Positions 1 to 42,953 of a stretch of DNA of 64,000 bases are shown piece after piece. Both the position numbers and the translations under genes were made by a program. The stretch covers positions 62,001 through 126,000 of the forward strand of contig NZ_FOKW01000003.1 of the NCBI RefSeq assembly GCF_900112205.1, in the 5' to 3' direction. How positions within the stretch are numbered: position 1 is the first letter of the stretch; each line of letters starts with the position of its first letter. Below the pieces are notes generated by a model. The model was not told where the DNA came from. It made no database searches and was given only the letters and a program-made list of their open reading frames with translations. Origin of the DNA: Natronobacterium haloterrestre (GTDB lineage Archaea > Halobacteriota > Halobacteria > Halobacteriales > Natrialbaceae).

Positions 1-1090
1 CGAGGCCGCGGGAGGTCATGTACAGCAGGTCCTCCTGGTCGATCTGGCCGACCGTCGCCGAGTGGCTGGCCTCGGTGTCGTGGTTGTTGATGATCAGCTT
101 CGGCGAGGCGTCGGCTTCGCTCTCGTCGGAGAGCATCAGCGTGTTCTCACGCTGGTAGGAGCTGGTGTCCCAGGCGTCCTTGCCGACGTCCTGGACCCCC
201 TCGTAGACCGAGCGGGCGACGTCGTCGGTGACGCCACGGGTCACCAGATCCGCCGTGGTGTGCTCGGCGCGGTGCCAGACCTTCGCGTCGAGGTCGAAGT
301 GCTGGTCGTTGTGGCCGTAGAAAGCCCCGACGATCTGGGTTTCGGAGGAGTCGCCGTTGAGCTCCGTCGAGACCTCGGTCTTCGTGAGCTGCGTGCCGAG
401 GTTGGCCTCGATCCAGTCGATCGTCGCGTAGGTGTCGGCGTCGCCGCGCTTGACGGTGAAGTTGTAGGCGTCCTCCGAGAGGTTCTGGAGGCTGCCGTAC
501 TGGACGCGGCTGTTCTCGCCGGCGACGACCTCGACGATCCCGCTGTAGTACTGCTCGTCTTGCTTCTCGCCGGTCGACTGTCGCTCGAGGATGGTGACCG
601 ACGAGGACTCCTCGGTGACGACGAGCGTGTAGTTGAACAGCGAGCGGGAGTTCTGCTCGGTGCGGATCGTGACGTCCTCGGCGTCGACGCCCTCGGGGAC
701 GTAGACGACGGTCCCGGTGCTAAACAGCGCCGTCGACAGCGCCGTCAGATAGTTCTCCTGGGGATCGACGACGGAGCCGAACTGCTCGCGGATGAGGTCC
801 TCGTGCTCGGCGACTGCCTCGGACCACGGAAGGACCTCGGCCTCGTCGGGACCGACCTGGTCTTTGTCCTCGGCCGCGTTCAGCGGGTCCACGAGCGACT
901 CGAAGTCGAGTTCGTGGAGGTTCGTCCAGTCGCGACCCGGCGTCCGGATGACGTCGGGCATGTCGAGGTCCTCGAGGGCCTCGAGGGCCTCGAGACGGGT
1001 CTCCGTGAGCCACTCGGGCTCGTCCAAGTTCCCGCTGATTTCGCGTACCTGTTCCTCCGTCAGATTGGCGTGTACCTGCGTCGTGCTCAT
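1..1090 (-). CDS. sufD: SufD, Fe-S cluster assembly scaffold subunit (3' end outside window)
   Basis: Partial gene. It starts at an ATG (reverse strand 1090-1088) and stays open to base 1, so the C-terminus is missing. The protein begins MSTTQVHANLTEEQVREISG and continues with the beta-helical SufB/SufD core; near the window edge it reads HSATVGQIDQEDLLYMTSRG, the conserved SufB/SufD C-terminal region. SufD pairs with SufB on the SufC ATPase to build Fe-S clusters in the cytoplasm. It is the last gene of sufC-sufB-sufD and begins 1 nt after the sufB stop, which implies cotranscription and coupled translation. The region is open but antisense frames are also open, so strand was decided by family recognition. 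Confidence 0.93.
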   Translation of the reverse strand, partial: MSTTQVHANLTEEQVREISGNLDEPEWLTETRLEALEALEDLDMPDVIRTPGRDWTNLHELDFESLVDPLNAAEDKDQVGPDEAEVLPWSEAVAEHEDLIREQFGSVVDPQENYLTALSTALFSTGTVVYVPEGVDAEDVTIRTEQNSRSLFNYTLVVTEESSSVTILERQSTGEKQDEQYYSGIVEVVAGENSRVQYGSLQNLSEDAYNFTVKRGDADTYATIDWIEANLGTQLTKTEVSTELNGDSSETQIVGAFYGHNDQHFDLDAKVWHRAEHTTADLVTRGVTDDVARSVYEGVQDVGKDAWDTSSYQRENTLMLSDESEADASPKLIINNHDTEASHSATVGQIDQEDLLYMTSRGL

Positions 1091-1091
1091 A

Positions 1092-2522
1092 TTATCCGAG
1101 GCTTCCCTCCATCTCGAGTTCGATGAGGCGGTTGAGTTCGACCGCGTACTCGATCGGCAGTTCCTCCGTGATCGGTTCGATGAAGCCGGCGACGATCATC
1201 TTCTTGGCGTCGTCGTCGTCCAGTCCGCGCGACTGGAGGTAGAAGATGTCCTCGTCGCCGATCTTGCCGACGGTCGCCTCGTGAGCGACGTCGACTTTCG
1301 ACTCCTCGATCTCCATGTACGGCATGGTGTCCGAGGTGGACTCGTTGTCGAACATCAAGGCGTCACACTCCACCGCGGTGGAGGAGTTCTCGGCGCCGTC
1401 GGCGATGTGGACGAGGCCGCGGTAGTTGGTGCGGCCGCCGTCCTTGGAGATCGACTTGGACTCGATGGTCGAACTCGTGTCGGGCGCGTTGTGGTAGACC
1501 TTCGCGCCGGTGTCGATGTCCTGACCCTCGCCCGCGAAGGCGATGGTGATGTGGGTGTCGGTCGCGCCGCGACCCTTGAGGATCGAGCACGGGTAGAGCA
1601 TGGTGGCCTTCGAGCCCATCGAGCCCGAAACCCACTCCATGGTACCGTTCTCTTCGACGATGGCACGCTTGGTGTTGAGGTTGAAGGTGTTCTTCGACCA
1701 GTTCTGCACCGTGGAGTACTGGACGTGGGCGTCCTCCTTGACGAAGACTTCCACTCCTCCGCTGTGGAGGTTGTGGGTGCCGTACTTGGGCGCGGAACAG
1801 CCCTCGATGTAGTGGACCTCGCTACCGGGTTCGGCGATGATCAGCGTGTGCTCGAACTGGCCCATCCCTTCCGAGTTCATCCGGAAGTACGCCTGGACGG
1901 GCATCTCGACGGTGACGTCCTCGGGGACGTAGACGAACGAGCCGCCGGACCAGACGGCGCCGTGCAGCGCGGCGAACTTGTTGTCGCTCGGGGGGACGCA
2001 GGTCGTCATGAAGTGCTCCTTGACGAGGTCGGGATGCTCCTGGACGGCCTCGTCCATGTTCATGAAGATGACGCCCTTCTCCTCCCACTGCTCCTGCATG
2101 TTCTGGTAGACGACCTCGGACTCGTACTGCGCGCCGACGCCCGAGAGCGCCTTCTTCTCGGCTTCCGGAATGCCCAGCTTGTCGAAGGTGTCCTGAATCT
2201 CGTCCGGAAGTTCGTCCCAGTCGTCGACGCCTTCGCGCTTGTCCACGTCCGGGCGGATGTAGGGGACGATCTCCTCGATGTCCAGGCCCGAGAGGTCCGG
2301 CTGGCCGGGCCAGTCCGTCGGCATCGGCATGTTCTGGTACTGCTTGAGCGCGCGGAGACGGCGCTCGAGCATCCAGTCGGGCTCGTCCTTGTCCTCGGAG
2401 ATCATCCGGATGATCTCCTCGGTCAGGCCCTTCTCGGATTTCACCGCGGCGTTCTGGTCTTTCTTGAACTCGAACCGCGCTTCGGTGTCGGTGTCTTTGA
2501 GGTGGTCTTGTTCGGAACTCAT
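1092..2522 (-). CDS. sufB: SufB, Fe-S cluster assembly scaffold subunit
   Basis: 476 aa, normal SufB length. The N-terminal third is helical and acidic. The core carries recognisable SufB stretches such as CSAPKYGTHNLHSGGVEVFV, QNWSKNTFNLNTKRA and the C-terminal HEATVGKIGDEDIFYLQSRG. SufB is the scaffold on which [Fe-S] clusters are assembled with SufC and SufD. The ATG lies 61 nt downstream of the sufC stop; sufD follows after 1 nt. The intergenic stretch before it (2523-2583) holds only T/A-richer sequence and no separate gene. Function is well established for the family; nothing is missing in the visible sequence. Confidence 0.96.
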   Translation of the reverse strand: MSSEQDHLKDTDTEARFEFKKDQNAAVKSEKGLTEEIIRMISEDKDEPDWMLERRLRALKQYQNMPMPTDWPGQPDLSGLDIEEIVPYIRPDVDKREGVDDWDELPDEIQDTFDKLGIPEAEKKALSGVGAQYESEVVYQNMQEQWEEKGVIFMNMDEAVQEHPDLVKEHFMTTCVPPSDNKFAALHGAVWSGGSFVYVPEDVTVEMPVQAYFRMNSEGMGQFEHTLIIAEPGSEVHYIEGCSAPKYGTHNLHSGGVEVFVKEDAHVQYSTVQNWSKNTFNLNTKRAIVEENGTMEWVSGSMGSKATMLYPCSILKGRGATDTHITIAFAGEGQDIDTGAKVYHNAPDTSSTIESKSISKDGGRTNYRGLVHIADGAENSSTAVECDALMFDNESTSDTMPYMEIEESKVDVAHEATVGKIGDEDIFYLQSRGLDDDDAKKMIVAGFIEPITEELPIEYAVELNRLIELEMEGSLG

Positions 2523-2583: not shown

Positions 2584-3489
2584 TTACGCCGTGCCGTAGA
2601 CCTCTTCGCGGACCCAGTCGTACCCCTTGTCCTCGAGCTGTTCGGCGAGCTCGGGACCGCCGCTCTTTGCGATCTGACCGTCGAGCATCACGTGGACGTG
2701 GTCGGGCTCGACGTAGTCGAGGATGCGCTGGTAGTGGGTGATCTGGAGGATGCCGGTGCCCTGCTCGTCGCGAAGGGCGTTGATGCCGTTCGAGACGTCC
2801 TGCAGTCGGTCGATGTCGAGCCCGGAGTCGATCTCGTCCAGAACGGCGATCGAGGGCTCGAGGATCGCAGCCTGCAGCACTTCGTTTTGCTTCTTCTCGC
2901 CGCCGGAGAAGCCGGCGTTGAGGTAACGCTGGGCGAACTTCTCGTCCATGTCCAGTTGCTCCATCTTCTCCTGGAGGATCTTCTGGAACTCGGCGACGCC
3001 GACTTCGCCTTCGTCGACGTCCCCTTCCATCGGCGAGGATTCGAAGCCCTCCTCCTCGTCTTCTTCTTCACCGTCCTCTTCCTCGAAGAGCTCCTCGCGC
3101 TCCTCGATCTTGGCGTTCAGCGCCGTCCGCAGGAAGTTCGTCATCGTGACGCCCTCGATCTCGGCCGGATACTGGAAGCCGAGGAAGACGCCGAGTGCGG
3201 CGCGCTCGTTGGGCTCGAGGTCCAGCAGGTTCCAGGTGCGCTGGTCCTCGTCGATCTCGACTTCTTCGCCGAACTCCTCGTCCTCGAGGTGCAGGAGAAC
3301 CTCACCTTCGGTGACCTCGTAGGCAGGGTGGCCCGCGATGACCTTCGCGGTCGTGGACTTCCCGGAGCCGTTCGGCCCCATCAGCGCGTGGATTTCGCCC
3401 GACTCGACCTCGAGATCGACGCCCTCGAGGATCTTCTCGTCGCCCTCTGCTACTTCAGCGTGCAGGTTGCTCAGTTCGAGACGTGCCAT
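2584..3489 (-). CDS. sufC: SufC, Fe-S assembly ABC ATPase
   Basis: 301 aa, longer than bacterial SufC (about 250). Walker A GPNGSGKST is at residues 38-46, Q-loop GFQYP at 104-108, signature FSGGEKK at 194-200 and Walker B IAVLDEIDSG at 214-223. The extra length is a strongly acidic insertion at about residues 129-162 (runs of Glu/Asp), a halophilic adaptation located between Q-loop and signature. SufC hydrolyses ATP to drive conformational change in SufB/SufD. First gene of the operon. Its likely box A lies about 85 nt upstream, so the mRNA has a leader of roughly 55-60 nt that includes half of an 18-bp palindrome. Confidence 0.96.
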   Translation of the reverse strand: MARLELSNLHAEVAEGDEKILEGVDLEVESGEIHALMGPNGSGKSTTAKVIAGHPAYEVTEGEVLLHLEDEEFGEEVEIDEDQRTWNLLDLEPNERAALGVFLGFQYPAEIEGVTMTNFLRTALNAKIEEREELFEEEDGEEEDEEEGFESSPMEGDVDEGEVGVAEFQKILQEKMEQLDMDEKFAQRYLNAGFSGGEKKQNEVLQAAILEPSIAVLDEIDSGLDIDRLQDVSNGINALRDEQGTGILQITHYQRILDYVEPDHVHVMLDGQIAKSGGPELAEQLEDKGYDWVREEVYGTA

Positions 3490-3535
3490 AGTACTCTGTC
3501 ACCCGAAGAGTGGGTCGTATCACTGATAACGGTTT

Positions 3536-3553
3536 CGTATCCAATTGGATACG
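3536..3553. promoter_or_regulatory. 18-bp perfect palindrome at suf operon promoter (candidate operator)
   Basis: CGTATCCAATTGGATACG reads identically on both strands. It lies 47 nt upstream of the sufC ATG. Its centre is about 29 bp downstream of the A/T-rich box at 3567-3579, which puts it over the expected transcription start. A dimeric repressor bound here would block initiation. The identity of the regulator (iron/DtxR-like, SufR-like or redox) is inference. Confidence 0.7.
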
Positions 3554-3566
3554 GTATCCTATCCGC

Positions 3567-3579
3567 AAAATAATTTTTT
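3567..3579 (-). promoter_or_regulatory. A/T-rich box A of suf operon
   Basis: AAAATAATTTTTT on the plus strand, the only long A/T run between sufC and the kinase gene. On the minus strand it is correctly placed to be the TATA box of sufCBD. Confidence 0.55.
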
Positions 3580-3788: not shown

Positions 3789-5645
3789 ATGGGATCCCAT
3801 CCGATGGGGTGGCAATTTACCGCTCGCTTTCTCCCGCTTTTCGTCGCCGCGACCCTCGCTGTGATCCTTTGCGTGCTCGCGGTCCGTAATCGACAACGGG
3901 ACGAACGAGCGGTCCCGCTCGTCGTCGGCGTGTTGCTGGGTGCCGGGATCTGGGCAGGGGCCGACGCGCTACGGCTTGCGCGTACCGATCTCGCCGCGAA
4001 ATTCCTCCTGCACAACGTCCGGTTCGTCGGGTCGACGTTGCTTGTCCTCTCCACGCTGCTCTTTACCCTCGAGTATACGAATCGCGACGAGCAGGTCACG
4101 ACGCGTACGGCCGCGGCGCTCGGCGCGCCGTTTCTCGTGACGCTCGGCCTCGTCTGGACCGACCACACGGCGACTCACGATCTGATCAGGACGAGCGTGG
4201 AACTCGTCGTCGTCGACGGGTTAGCCGTCGCCGAGTTCGAGTTCGGCCCCGCCTTCTACCTCAACGCCGCCTACTCCTACACGCTGCTCGGGACAGCGCT
4301 CGCGCTGTACCTGCTCGAAATGCTCAGGACGCAGGGCCGGGTGTATCGTCGCCAGTGTGCAACGCTCGTGACGGGGATGCTCGTTCCGTGGGTACTGAAC
4401 GCGCTGTACCTTCGAGGAACGACAGTGGTGGATCTCACCGGCGTCGGCCTCGTCGTAACGGGGATCGCGTTCTACGCGTCGCTGTTCTGGTTCCAGTTGC
4501 TCGACCTGGGGCCGATCGCCAGGAGCACCGTCGTCGACGAGATCGAGCACGGCGTCGTCGTGGTCGACGCCGAAGGCCGCGTGGTCGACGTCAACGAGAC
4601 TGCAGTGTCGGTGTTCGGTCGCTCCCGGGTCGACCTCGTCGGGTCGGACGCCGGGTCGTTGCCGAACTCGCCCCCTGACCTCGCCGAGCGCCTCGCACGG
4701 GAGGAACCGGTCCACGACGAGGTGACGGTATCGATCGGAGACGGCGCGCGACACTTCACCGTCGACGTTTCGCCGATCGCGGTTCGGGACGGTCGCCACG
4801 CCGGCCACGTCGTCCTCTTTCGTGACGTTACCGAGCAACGCCAACGGCAGCGCGAACTCGAGCGCCGCACCGAACAACTCGAGACCCAGACCGACCGATT
4901 CGAGCGGCAAAACGAGCGGCTGGACCGGTTCGCGAGCATCCTCTCACACGACCTCCGGAACCCGCTTACCGTCGCCCGCGGGTACGTCGAGACCATGGAC
5001 GAGGATCGACCGCCGGATCCGGAACGGCTGGCAGCGATCGAGGAGTCGCTCGACCGGATGGACGAGATCGTCGACGACGTCCGAACGCTCGTCCGCCAGG
5101 AAAGCGAGCCGACCGACCGCGAGCCCGTCGACTTGCGGGCCGTCGCCACCGACGCCTGGAACGGGACCGCGACGAAAGACGCCTCGCTCGTCGTCGAGAC
5201 CGACCGGACGGTTCGCGCCGACCGGAGCCGTCTCCGTCAACTGCTGGAGAACCTGTTCCGGAACGCGATCGACCACGGCCCGGACGACGTCACCGTCCAC
5301 GTGGGCGACCTCGAGGACGGGGGATTCTACGTCGCGGACGACGGCCCCGGGATCCCCGAGTCCGAACGCGGAGCGGTCTTCGAGGAAGGATACTCGACCA
5401 GCGAGGTCGGAACGGGGCTCGGACTGGCCATCGTCTCGAGCGTCGCGGACGCTCACGGCTGGTCGATCGAACCGCTCGAGAGCGACGGCGGCGGTGCCCG
5501 GTTCGAGGTCGTCACCGGGAACGAGGACGGCGATGCCGACGCCGACACCGAGAGCGCGGGCACCGAGCCACCCGTGAACCGTCGGGACCGGGGACCGTTC
5601 GACGATCGGGGATCGTCGCAGGAGCCTCCGTCCCCCGTCGACTAA
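3789..5645 (+). CDS. Membrane sensor histidine kinase (7TM-type N-terminus, PAS, HisKA, HATPase)
   Basis: 618 aa from ATG 3789. The frame is open further upstream to 3582, but that stretch is unlike protein, so the ATG before GSHPMGWQF was chosen. Residues about 1-215 form seven hydrophobic segments like the haloarchaeal HisKA_7TM sensor. A PAS domain (about 225-330) and a coiled-coil linker follow. The HisKA box SHDLRNPLT carries the phospho-acceptor His at about residue 387. The ATPase has N-box NLFRNAIDHG (about 487), G1 DDGPGIPESE and G2 GTGLGLAIV (about 540). It senses an unknown signal and autophosphorylates. No response regulator is adjacent, so it is an orphan kinase. The C-terminus ends in a low-complexity acidic tail. 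Confidence 0.9.
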   Translation: MGSHPMGWQFTARFLPLFVAATLAVILCVLAVRNRQRDERAVPLVVGVLLGAGIWAGADALRLARTDLAAKFLLHNVRFVGSTLLVLSTLLFTLEYTNRDEQVTTRTAAALGAPFLVTLGLVWTDHTATHDLIRTSVELVVVDGLAVAEFEFGPAFYLNAAYSYTLLGTALALYLLEMLRTQGRVYRRQCATLVTGMLVPWVLNALYLRGTTVVDLTGVGLVVTGIAFYASLFWFQLLDLGPIARSTVVDEIEHGVVVVDAEGRVVDVNETAVSVFGRSRVDLVGSDAGSLPNSPPDLAERLAREEPVHDEVTVSIGDGARHFTVDVSPIAVRDGRHAGHVVLFRDVTEQRQRQRELERRTEQLETQTDRFERQNERLDRFASILSHDLRNPLTVARGYVETMDEDRPPDPERLAAIEESLDRMDEIVDDVRTLVRQESEPTDREPVDLRAVATDAWNGTATKDASLVVETDRTVRADRSRLRQLLENLFRNAIDHGPDDVTVHVGDLEDGGFYVADDGPGIPESERGAVFEEGYSTSEVGTGLGLAIVSSVADAHGWSIEPLESDGGGARFEVVTGNEDGDADADTESAGTEPPVNRRDRGPFDDRGSSQEPPSPVD

Positions 5646-38831: not shown

Positions 38832-40528
38832 CAGAGGTACCCGAGGTCCTCGAGTCGTTCGGTCACTTCGCCGTCGTCGGCGGTCGGCTCGACGGTCGCC
38901 CGCCCGTAGGGAATGTCGCCGTAGTCACTTCGGCGGACGTCTGCCGAGAGGACGCCGGGCGGTACCGACCCCGTCATCCGCTCGGGGACCGGACGGTCGA
39001 GTAGCGCCATCGCGATCGGGGCGACGTCGGTGAGCGAGAACCGATCCGGTCCGGAAGCTGAGAAAGCGGGGCCGGCACCGATGAACACGCCGTCGCGCTT
39101 GTGGTTGTACGTGTCGACGCTCACGAACTGCCGCCCGTAGAGCGTACTCGAGACGAGGTGGTTCATGTCGGTCGGAAGGAAACAGACGTCCGGCGCCCGG
39201 TCGACGTAGGGGCCGTCGTAGAGGTCCTCGCGCCGGCAGACGTACTCGAAGACCGGCTCGCCGTTCGGCGTCTCGAGGGCGGAGAGTATCTCGATGATCT
39301 CCTCTCTGGTCGACTCGTAGGCCGACTGCGGGACGACGCCGTCTGGTTCCCGGCCGGCGACGTTGATCCGGACGCCCATCCGGGTGCCGTCGGCGCAGTA
39401 CGCACGGGAGTTGCGCCAGTCGACGCTCTCGGTGGCGGCCGATTTGACGGCGTCGGGGGCCAGTCGGAGCAGGGTCGATTCGAGGCCGACGCGCTCGGCG
39501 GCGGCGTAGACGTCGGCCGGTTCGACGCCGACGCGTGAGGCGAGTCGTTGGCCGGCACGGACGGTACCCTCGAGGAGGGGCGAGGACCCGTTGTCGCCGT
39601 TCCGTGCCGGTTCGGCCCCATCGTCGACCGGCCCCGGACCCTGGCTCGGGCCCGGACCGCCGGAGCCGTTACCCTCGACCAGCGATGCCTTCTCCGTCCC
39701 GATGGTCGGTCGATCCGTCTCGTCGGTCGTCTCGACGAAGCCGTGATCCCGGAGGACTTCGTTGACGTGAACGTTGTAGCCGGTGACGGGACCGATCCCG
39801 TGGTCCGAACAGACGACGACGTTGACCGCGTCGTCGTCGACCGCCTCGAGCACGTCGCCGACCAGCCGATCCGCGGCCGCGTAGATCCGCCGGAACGCCT
39901 CGTCGCGCTCGAAGTTGTGGAAGACGGCGTCGGTCTTCTGGACCTGCAGGACCGCGAGCTCCCACTCCTCGCGCTCGACCAGTTCGACCGCCGCGCGTCG
40001 ACGTCGTTCGATCAGGTCGAGGTAGCCCTCGAACTTCGCGTCTTTGTCGTCGCTGACCTCCGCTCGCGAGTAGATGGTGTACTCCTCGCCGATCGCCGCC
40101 GACAGCTCGTCGCGGATCCCCTCGGGGTGGCCCGGTTCGTCCTCGACGGCGAGATAGCCTGGTACGAGCGCTCCCTCGATCGGCTCGGCAGGATGGGTCA
40201 CGGGGACGTTCATGACGACCGATCGACCGCCATCCCGGGAGTGAGAGAGGTACTCCCAGAGCGCGGGTTTGCGGACGTCGGTCCGTGAGACGAGTTGCGC
40301 CTCGTCGGGGTAGCCGTCGTAGGCGAAGAACCCGTAGACGCCGTGATGGCTCGGATCCGTGCCGGTGTACATCGAGGGCCAGGCGCTGCCCGTCCACGGC
40401 GGGTGAGTCGACTCGAGGCGCGCCTCGAGGCCCCGTTCCCGGAGCCGCTGGAGGTTGGGGGTGGCGTCGGCGAACCGATCCACGTAGCGGAAATCGAGCG
40501 CGTCGAGTCCGATGACGACCGTCTTCAT
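38831..40528 (-). CDS. Alkaline-phosphatase-superfamily phosphodiesterase-like enzyme (PDE2)
   Basis: 565 aa from ATG 40528 (MKTVVIGLDALDFRYVDRFA). Motifs: VVIGLDALD (metal Asp), nucleophile Thr in HPPWTGSAWPSMYTGTDPSH, VVCSDHGIGPVTGYNVHVNE (metal Asp-His), and a late DVAPIAM. It ends TERLEDLGYL, the shared tail. No signal or membrane segment. The middle holds a low-complexity Gly/Pro insertion (about residues 290-325). Coupled to flippase 2 downstream. Its own start is overlapped by the TGA of a 40-codon ORF that has a box A at the right distance. Confidence 0.84.
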   Translation of the reverse strand: MKTVVIGLDALDFRYVDRFADATPNLQRLRERGLEARLESTHPPWTGSAWPSMYTGTDPSHHGVYGFFAYDGYPDEAQLVSRTDVRKPALWEYLSHSRDGGRSVVMNVPVTHPAEPIEGALVPGYLAVEDEPGHPEGIRDELSAAIGEEYTIYSRAEVSDDKDAKFEGYLDLIERRRRAAVELVEREEWELAVLQVQKTDAVFHNFERDEAFRRIYAAADRLVGDVLEAVDDDAVNVVVCSDHGIGPVTGYNVHVNEVLRDHGFVETTDETDRPTIGTEKASLVEGNGSGGPGPSQGPGPVDDGAEPARNGDNGSSPLLEGTVRAGQRLASRVGVEPADVYAAAERVGLESTLLRLAPDAVKSAATESVDWRNSRAYCADGTRMGVRINVAGREPDGVVPQSAYESTREEIIEILSALETPNGEPVFEYVCRREDLYDGPYVDRAPDVCFLPTDMNHLVSSTLYGRQFVSVDTYNHKRDGVFIGAGPAFSASGPDRFSLTDVAPIAMALLDRPVPERMTGSVPPGVLSADVRRSDYGDIPYGRATVEPTADDGEVTERLEDLGYL

Positions 40529-42614: not shown

Positions 42615-42953
42615 TCGGATTGCTCCGTCGTTGTCCCGTCGTAGCCCTTGTTATTCTCCGCATTCCGGGCGTGTGATGGAGGCTACCGTCCGAACCTCGA
42701 TCGGGTGGGTAGGACCAGCGAGCGCCCGTGAACTGGACAGAAGACCGGTCCGCGGTCGCTGGTCTCCCGGTTGCCACGGACGGAGCACGGTTCACTCGAG
42801 CGGGACCGAACGATCGGACTCTCGCCGCTGGAAGACTGCGGCGAGAAACCGACGACGGGCGTTCGGAAGGAGTGGAGGAGGGGAAGAGGGGAAGAGGACA
42901 CCCGCTTCCGAACAACGGTGACCTCGAGGGCCGCGAGCGACGATCGTCGCTCG
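42615..42953. other. Intergenic region, 339 bp
   Basis: Holds the ATAACAA promoter of the membrane-protein gene near its left end. A purine-rich tract on the plus strand (42868-42899, GGAGGAGGGGAAGAGG-type) lies just past the DUF1616 stop and gives a pyrimidine-rich 3' end to its mRNA, a possible terminator. No gene seen. Confidence 0.5.
42648..42654 (-). promoter_or_regulatory. ATAACAA box of multi-spanning membrane-protein gene
   Basis: TTGTTAT on plus strand, centred 37 nt upstream of ATG 42614. Confidence 0.5.

Follow-up and report, generated by a model that had tools for sequence, protein, structure and literature searches.

The gas-vesicle (gvp) promoters of haloarchaea carry GvpE elements, described as two 8-nt parts spaced 4 nt apart that lie adjacent to the BRE and are activating (PMC4390858). 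In the Thermococcales, TFB-RF1 is reported to activate from a palindrome (TCTG-N5-CAGA) that immediately precedes a weak BRE (PMC5937170). The introduction of the same paper states that regulators bound within a promoter hinder TFB or TBP and thereby repress (PMC5937170). Three DtxR regulators of iron homeostasis, one of them TroR, are described in Haloferax volcanii (PMC11349517), and the binding sites of the DtxR family are reported to be palindromes (PMC2628430). In bacteria, IscR and SufR are presented as dedicated regulators of the isc and suf operons, which encode Fe-S assembly genes. Archaeal control of the Fe-S assembly machinery appears to be little described in the literature sampled. 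No haloarchaeal suf operator is named in the titles and abstract openings covered, a scope outside which papers on haloarchaeal TroR and archaeal DtxR motifs fall.

The subject of this report is CGTATCCAATTGGATACG, a perfect palindrome of 18 bp upstream of the sufCBD operon of Natronobacterium haloterrestre (Natrialbaceae), located in a window of 64,000 nucleotides (the whole stretch of DNA analyzed). Sequence comparison indicates that it is probably the site of a dimeric transcription factor controlling only the sufCBD operon. By its conservation, the suf-promoter dyad is a real, family-level, single-target, and operator-like element, one more case of an already known type. As in the GvpE upstream elements, the half-sites are 4 nt apart and directly adjacent to the BRE; this likeness is one of layout, and the GvpE elements, unlike the suf dyad, are described as 20 nt long (8-4-8) and as controlling gas-vesicle genes. 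The TFB-RF1 motif, also found by aligning promoters (PMC5937170), shares with the suf dyad its position just upstream of the BRE and TATA element, a conserved distance, and very few targets. However, its sequence is different, and the BREs of TFB-RF1 promoters are reported to be weak, in contrast to the consensus BRE of suf. In common with the operators of the DtxR family (DtxR, TroR), the suf dyad is a palindrome upstream of a metal-related operon, and a DtxR gene is linked to suf; in contrast to those operators, there is one site per genome, and of the haloarchaea that keep the same DtxR, most lack the dyad. The bacterial IscR/SufR systems, as described, resemble it in their dedicated regulation of Fe-S assembly genes, but they belong to another domain of life and another promoter type, and no convincing Rrf2/IscR protein turned up in the N. 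haloterrestre genome.

Layout of the suf promoter

Haloarchaeal promoters are described as having the consensus CGAAA for the BRE and TTWT for the TATA element (PMC4983044). The operon and the elements of its promoter are located in the window as follows.

1-961, minus strand: sufD, whose gene start is inside the window and which runs past the left edge (L128:9873-10961)
1092-2522, minus strand: sufB, with a SUFBD_core domain
2584-3489, minus strand: sufC (ATPase), the first gene of the operon
3499-3500, minus strand: predicted transcription start, a conserved GA about 30 nt past TTAT, which would leave a leader of 10-11 nt
3510-3517, minus strand: conserved CGACCCAC between the TATA element and the predicted start, from the column profile
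3526-3529, minus strand: TTAT, serving as TATA element in the conserved suf core promoter
3533-3537, minus strand: BRE CGAAA of the same core promoter, sharing the last 2 bp of the palindrome
3536-3553, unstranded: CGTATCCAATTGGATACG, the proposed operator, a perfect 18-bp palindrome conserved in sufC promoters of the family
3547-3559, unstranded: GGATACCGTATCC, an odd palindrome of 13 bp read by eye, which overlaps CGTATCCAATTGGATACG and uses the same left half-site
3567-3578, minus strand: upstream A/T box, consensus GAAAWWTWTTTT, the box A of the preliminary description, its spacing from the core promoter held constant in the different families

The sequence CGAAA-N3-TTAT, or a close form of it, is present in all 161 suf upstream regions compared (121 from Natrialbaceae and 40 from other families). 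The TATA element TTAT occurs in 119 of the 121 and 38 of the 40, and a weak BRE of the TFB-RF1 type was not seen at suf, where the consensus CGAAA is present in 111 of the 121 own-family promoters and 29 of the 40 others; these counts are biased upward by an alignment anchor that itself contains CGNAA and TTAT and that all 161 regions matched at 15 or more of 18 positions. As a repeated promoter type, the core element ATACGAAACCGTTATCAG has no second site in the N. haloterrestre genome at up to two mismatches.

The conserved GA is found in 117 of the 121 own-family promoters, many genomes have a Shine-Dalgarno-like GAGG after it (read by eye), and the main suf transcription start is predicted at 3499/3500. 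Taking this start, the palindrome would extend from about -54 to -37, with its last two bases within the BRE. The preliminary description had placed the palindrome over the suf start. It is indeed a conserved dyad of the suf promoter, but a conserved core promoter (161 of 161) lies downstream of it and the palindrome adjoins the BRE; at the main promoter, it probably does not overlie the start.

The A/T box lies about 42-44 bp upstream of the BRE and TATA element in the 161 suf promoters across haloarchaeal families, an unusually rigid two-box layout. A first pass broke ties towards the expected place; in a repeat with random tie-breaking and a shuffled control, the best match fell within 6 positions of that place for 119 of the 121 Natrialbaceae promoters and 38 of the 40 others, versus 11 and 4 when shuffled. 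The box could be bound by a factor, or it could be a second promoter whose start falls within the palindrome. Between the TATA element and the start, the other-family promoters (L202-L241) contain what is possibly another dyad, GGGTCG-N2-CGACCC, a weak one with at least three of five pairs in 25 of the 40.

Conservation and genomic distribution of the dyad

The preliminary description of a perfect 18-bp palindrome is borne out by CGTATCCAATTGGATACG at 3536-3553, and the spacing of about 29 bp given there is reproduced when measured from the first base of TTATTTT (3573-3567) to the palindrome center. The dyad consists of GTATCC-AATT-GGATAC with C/G flanks, and CGTATCCAATTGGATACG is the sole match in the window when up to three mismatches are allowed. 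As a bare palindrome, it is unexceptional, matches of such length being no rarity in GC-rich DNA like this. Perfect palindromes of at least 18 bp number four in the window, and 40 first-order Markov simulations produced a mean of 0.975, with one or more in 62.5% of the runs. Symmetry is therefore weak evidence (four in the window versus 0.975 simulated), and the case rests on comparison across genomes. The other three palindromes are GGAGATCATCCGGATGATCTCC, a 22-bp palindrome within sufB at 2397-2418 that exceeds the suf-promoter palindrome in length, and two more, one of 20 bp (42934-42953) and one of 18 bp (40412-40429). The overlapping GGATACCGTATCC is exact in N. haloterrestre, has one mismatch in the nearest relative (L008), and is more degraded elsewhere in the genus (read by eye); it is possibly a third half-site.

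Homologs of sufC were found in 121 of the 125 genomes of the family, and the 400 nt upstream of each were compared; the remaining four (G035, G036, G121, and G124), which lack a SufC match, are all 53-77% complete. In other families, 280 of 293 genomes matched, and 40 promoters were hand-selected among the matches listed so as to cover a broad range, a sample without families f2, f3, f8, f15, and f16. In a fixed register to the promoter, the 16-bp core GTATCCAATTGGATAC is exact in 37 of the 121 own-family promoters, and it is present with up to one mismatch in 58, up to two in 71, and up to three in 84. The alignment of suf promoters in relatives, proposed in the preliminary description, thus recovers the dyad directly upstream of the BRE at a conserved distance in 58 of 121 promoters (up to one mismatch), and its absence from close relatives, which would have spoken against it, was not observed. 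Another 37 of the 121 deviate from GTATCCAATTGGATAC at four or more of the 16 positions, and from these alignments the dyad is judged lost or altered in many lineages that retain the operon. Among the best 80 of 266 relatives, the named carriers include species of Natrinema, Haloterrigena, Natronorubrum, Halopiger, Salinadaptatus, and Halobiforma, and degraded forms are found among Natrialba, Natronococcus, and Natribaculum.

The two arms of the palindrome differ in their conservation. The left arm GTATCC is exact in 71 of 121 own-family promoters versus none of the 40 from other families, and its major-base frequency averages 0.83 in the family versus 0.44 outside; the corresponding values for the spacer are 0.70 and 0.46. 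Own-family positions between the left arm and the A/T box (-26 to -19) have a frequency of 0.48, and those further upstream 0.36. The right arm reaches 0.80 outside the family too. Part of the right arm's conservation reflects its role as BRE context, so that the weight of the evidence lies mainly with the left arm. Among own-family promoters, the palindrome axis is the strongest dyad, and perfectly paired sequences number 37 against 11.1 in shuffles, an excess that matches the count of exact GTATCCAATTGGATAC copies and is inflated by relatedness. The palindrome is confirmed by its conservation as real beyond chance, and on the promoters sampled the dyad appears confined to part of the Natrialbaceae.

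A scan of the 125 family genomes for the 16-bp core at up to one mismatch returned 59 sites in 58 genomes, representing 15 of 29 genera, and the reversed-sequence control returned none. By coordinates, 58 of these sites are sufC promoters. The remaining one (G020:C5:73653, L146) is in a second copy of the polB end and suf promoter ahead of unrelated sequence, and probably represents either a duplication or an assembly artifact. A genome-wide search at one or two mismatches, as the preliminary description had suggested, gives a single site in the N. haloterrestre genome (4.50 Mb). At three mismatches, five extra sites appear in this genome versus three for the reversed control, and none of the five precedes a recognizable iron or Fe-S gene (ORFs judged by GC3 and by eye). 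A wider regulon was rejected on the ground that these sites are at chance level. Recurrence at other iron genes was not seen at up to two mismatches in the N. haloterrestre genome or up to one mismatch in the 125 genomes. The sites found in these scans are those of the suf promoter only, which marks the element as dedicated to suf. A search of viral sequences for the combination of palindrome and BRE gave none.

The gene divergent from suf was also considered as a target. It encodes a 7TM/PAS histidine kinase at about 3792-5645 on the plus strand, between suf and polB, and is apparently a recent insertion into an old polB-suf neighborhood. Of the 110 loci searched, only those of N. haloterrestre and G081 have a close match to it near suf, which assigns the palindrome to suf; the one other match, in a Halomicrobium locus, is 49% identical, and the kinase gene was rejected as the target.

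Candidate regulators and rival readings

A metal- or cluster-sensing regulator at the palindrome is plausible. The nearest candidate is encoded downstream of sufCBD, beyond the left edge of the window:

G000:C20:60617-61048 (L128:8614-9048), minus strand: suf-linked DtxR-family gene, about 1 kb beyond the window

Its product has two Pfam DtxR domains, and a small ORF between sufCBD and this gene looks ferritin-like. We take the protein, from its synteny, to be the ortholog of the suf-linked DtxR of Haloferax, presumably TroR. When it is aligned with ScaR, Tyr and Ser stand opposite the histidines that act as metal ligands. Members from different haloarchaeal families share a cysteine tail, CPDCF-X5-C or CC with minor variation, and judging from these residues any metal sensing by the protein may be atypical. 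The search for IscR/Rrf2 proteins in the N. haloterrestre genome gave two weak matches, one of them partial (9-64 of 132) and barely above the cut-off, and the other overlapping a second DtxR gene.

Binding of the palindrome by the suf-linked DtxR protein in response to iron or cluster status would agree with the palindromic sites of its family, with the presence of an ortholog in 124 of the 125 family genomes, and with its location no more than 6 kb from sufC at 62 of the 80 named haloarchaeal loci (the best 80 of 266 relatives). However, the protein is equally conserved where the dyad is missing, and its helix VSPASVNEM is identical in family members with and without the dyad. A general iron regulator such as TroR, moreover, should need several sites, whereas the dyad sequence occurs once per genome; we therefore consider this assignment unlikely, though the protein is the obvious candidate. 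A working box A at 3567-3578, with CGAAA/TTAT lying in the leader, would return the start to the palindrome, where a bound dimer would block initiation. The fixed distance of the A/T box (119 of 121 and 38 of 40 promoters) accords with this arrangement, as does the arithmetic by which a start about 30 nt past the TTAT of the box falls near 3543, the palindrome center. Yet CGAAA-N3-TTAT is both more strongly conserved than the A/T box and a better fit to the published haloarchaeal BRE/TATA consensus, and at about +30 from it lies the conserved GA (117 of 121), with a Shine-Dalgarno-like stretch read by eye beside it. That the A/T box and the core promoter stay 44 bp apart also points to a single composite promoter, not a pair of independent ones, and we regard initiation within the palindrome as distinctly unlikely.

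The symmetry might instead be a coincidence fixed in one family, the right arm being BRE context and the left arm belonging to a promoter box further upstream, with no operator at all. Such a view would account for the asymmetric conservation, including that of the right arm outside the family, and for palindromes of such length being expected about once per window; GAAACC repeats 22 bp apart can also be read by eye in some suf promoters (e.g., L047). It is nevertheless very unlikely, given that the left arm and spacer are conserved in the family (0.83 and 0.70) and not outside it (0.44 and 0.46), beside positions that vary freely (0.48). The last alternative treats the palindrome as the 5'-terminal part of a leader transcript, where, given an upstream start, the arms could form a 6-bp stem with an AAUU loop. 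The favored start leaves the palindrome outside the transcript, however, and changes in the arms are mostly one-sided. Over all eight pairs, double changes are compensating in 14 cases and non-compensating in 42, with no compensating double change in the outer three pairs. An RNA hairpin is thus unsupported and can hardly be credited.

Proposed mechanism and significance

Under the preferred reading, that of an operator for a dimeric factor, a candidate dimer on the dyad at about -54 to -37 would compete with TFB for the BRE and repress suf, and this putative repressor would be released when more Fe-S assembly is needed. Repression from the dyad is given an even chance. Activation by recruitment of TFB/TBP from the same position is a possibility of somewhat lesser weight, and the small remainder falls to both modes together or to neither. 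The core promoter is near consensus, and all 40 promoters from other families retain it and lack the dyad. An obligatory site for an activator fits this pattern less well than a brake that was added.

A more specific proposal, which we advance only as a long shot from the comparisons above, is that archaeal Fe-S cluster assembly has a one-operon regulatory circuit, in which a single-target suf regulator of a class unrelated to IscR/SufR acts through an operator that arose within one haloarchaeal family on an ancient, rigidly spaced promoter. In its boldest form, the sensor would be the suf-linked DtxR relative, reading the status of the cluster rather than of the metal.

Both the regulator and the sign of its action are directly testable with the exact 18-bp site as bait and by comparing species with an intact site (e.g., Natrinema, Natronorubrum, and Halobiforma) with sister genera whose site is degraded. 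The rigid layout of the suf promoter that is common to haloarchaeal families offers a second testable point.
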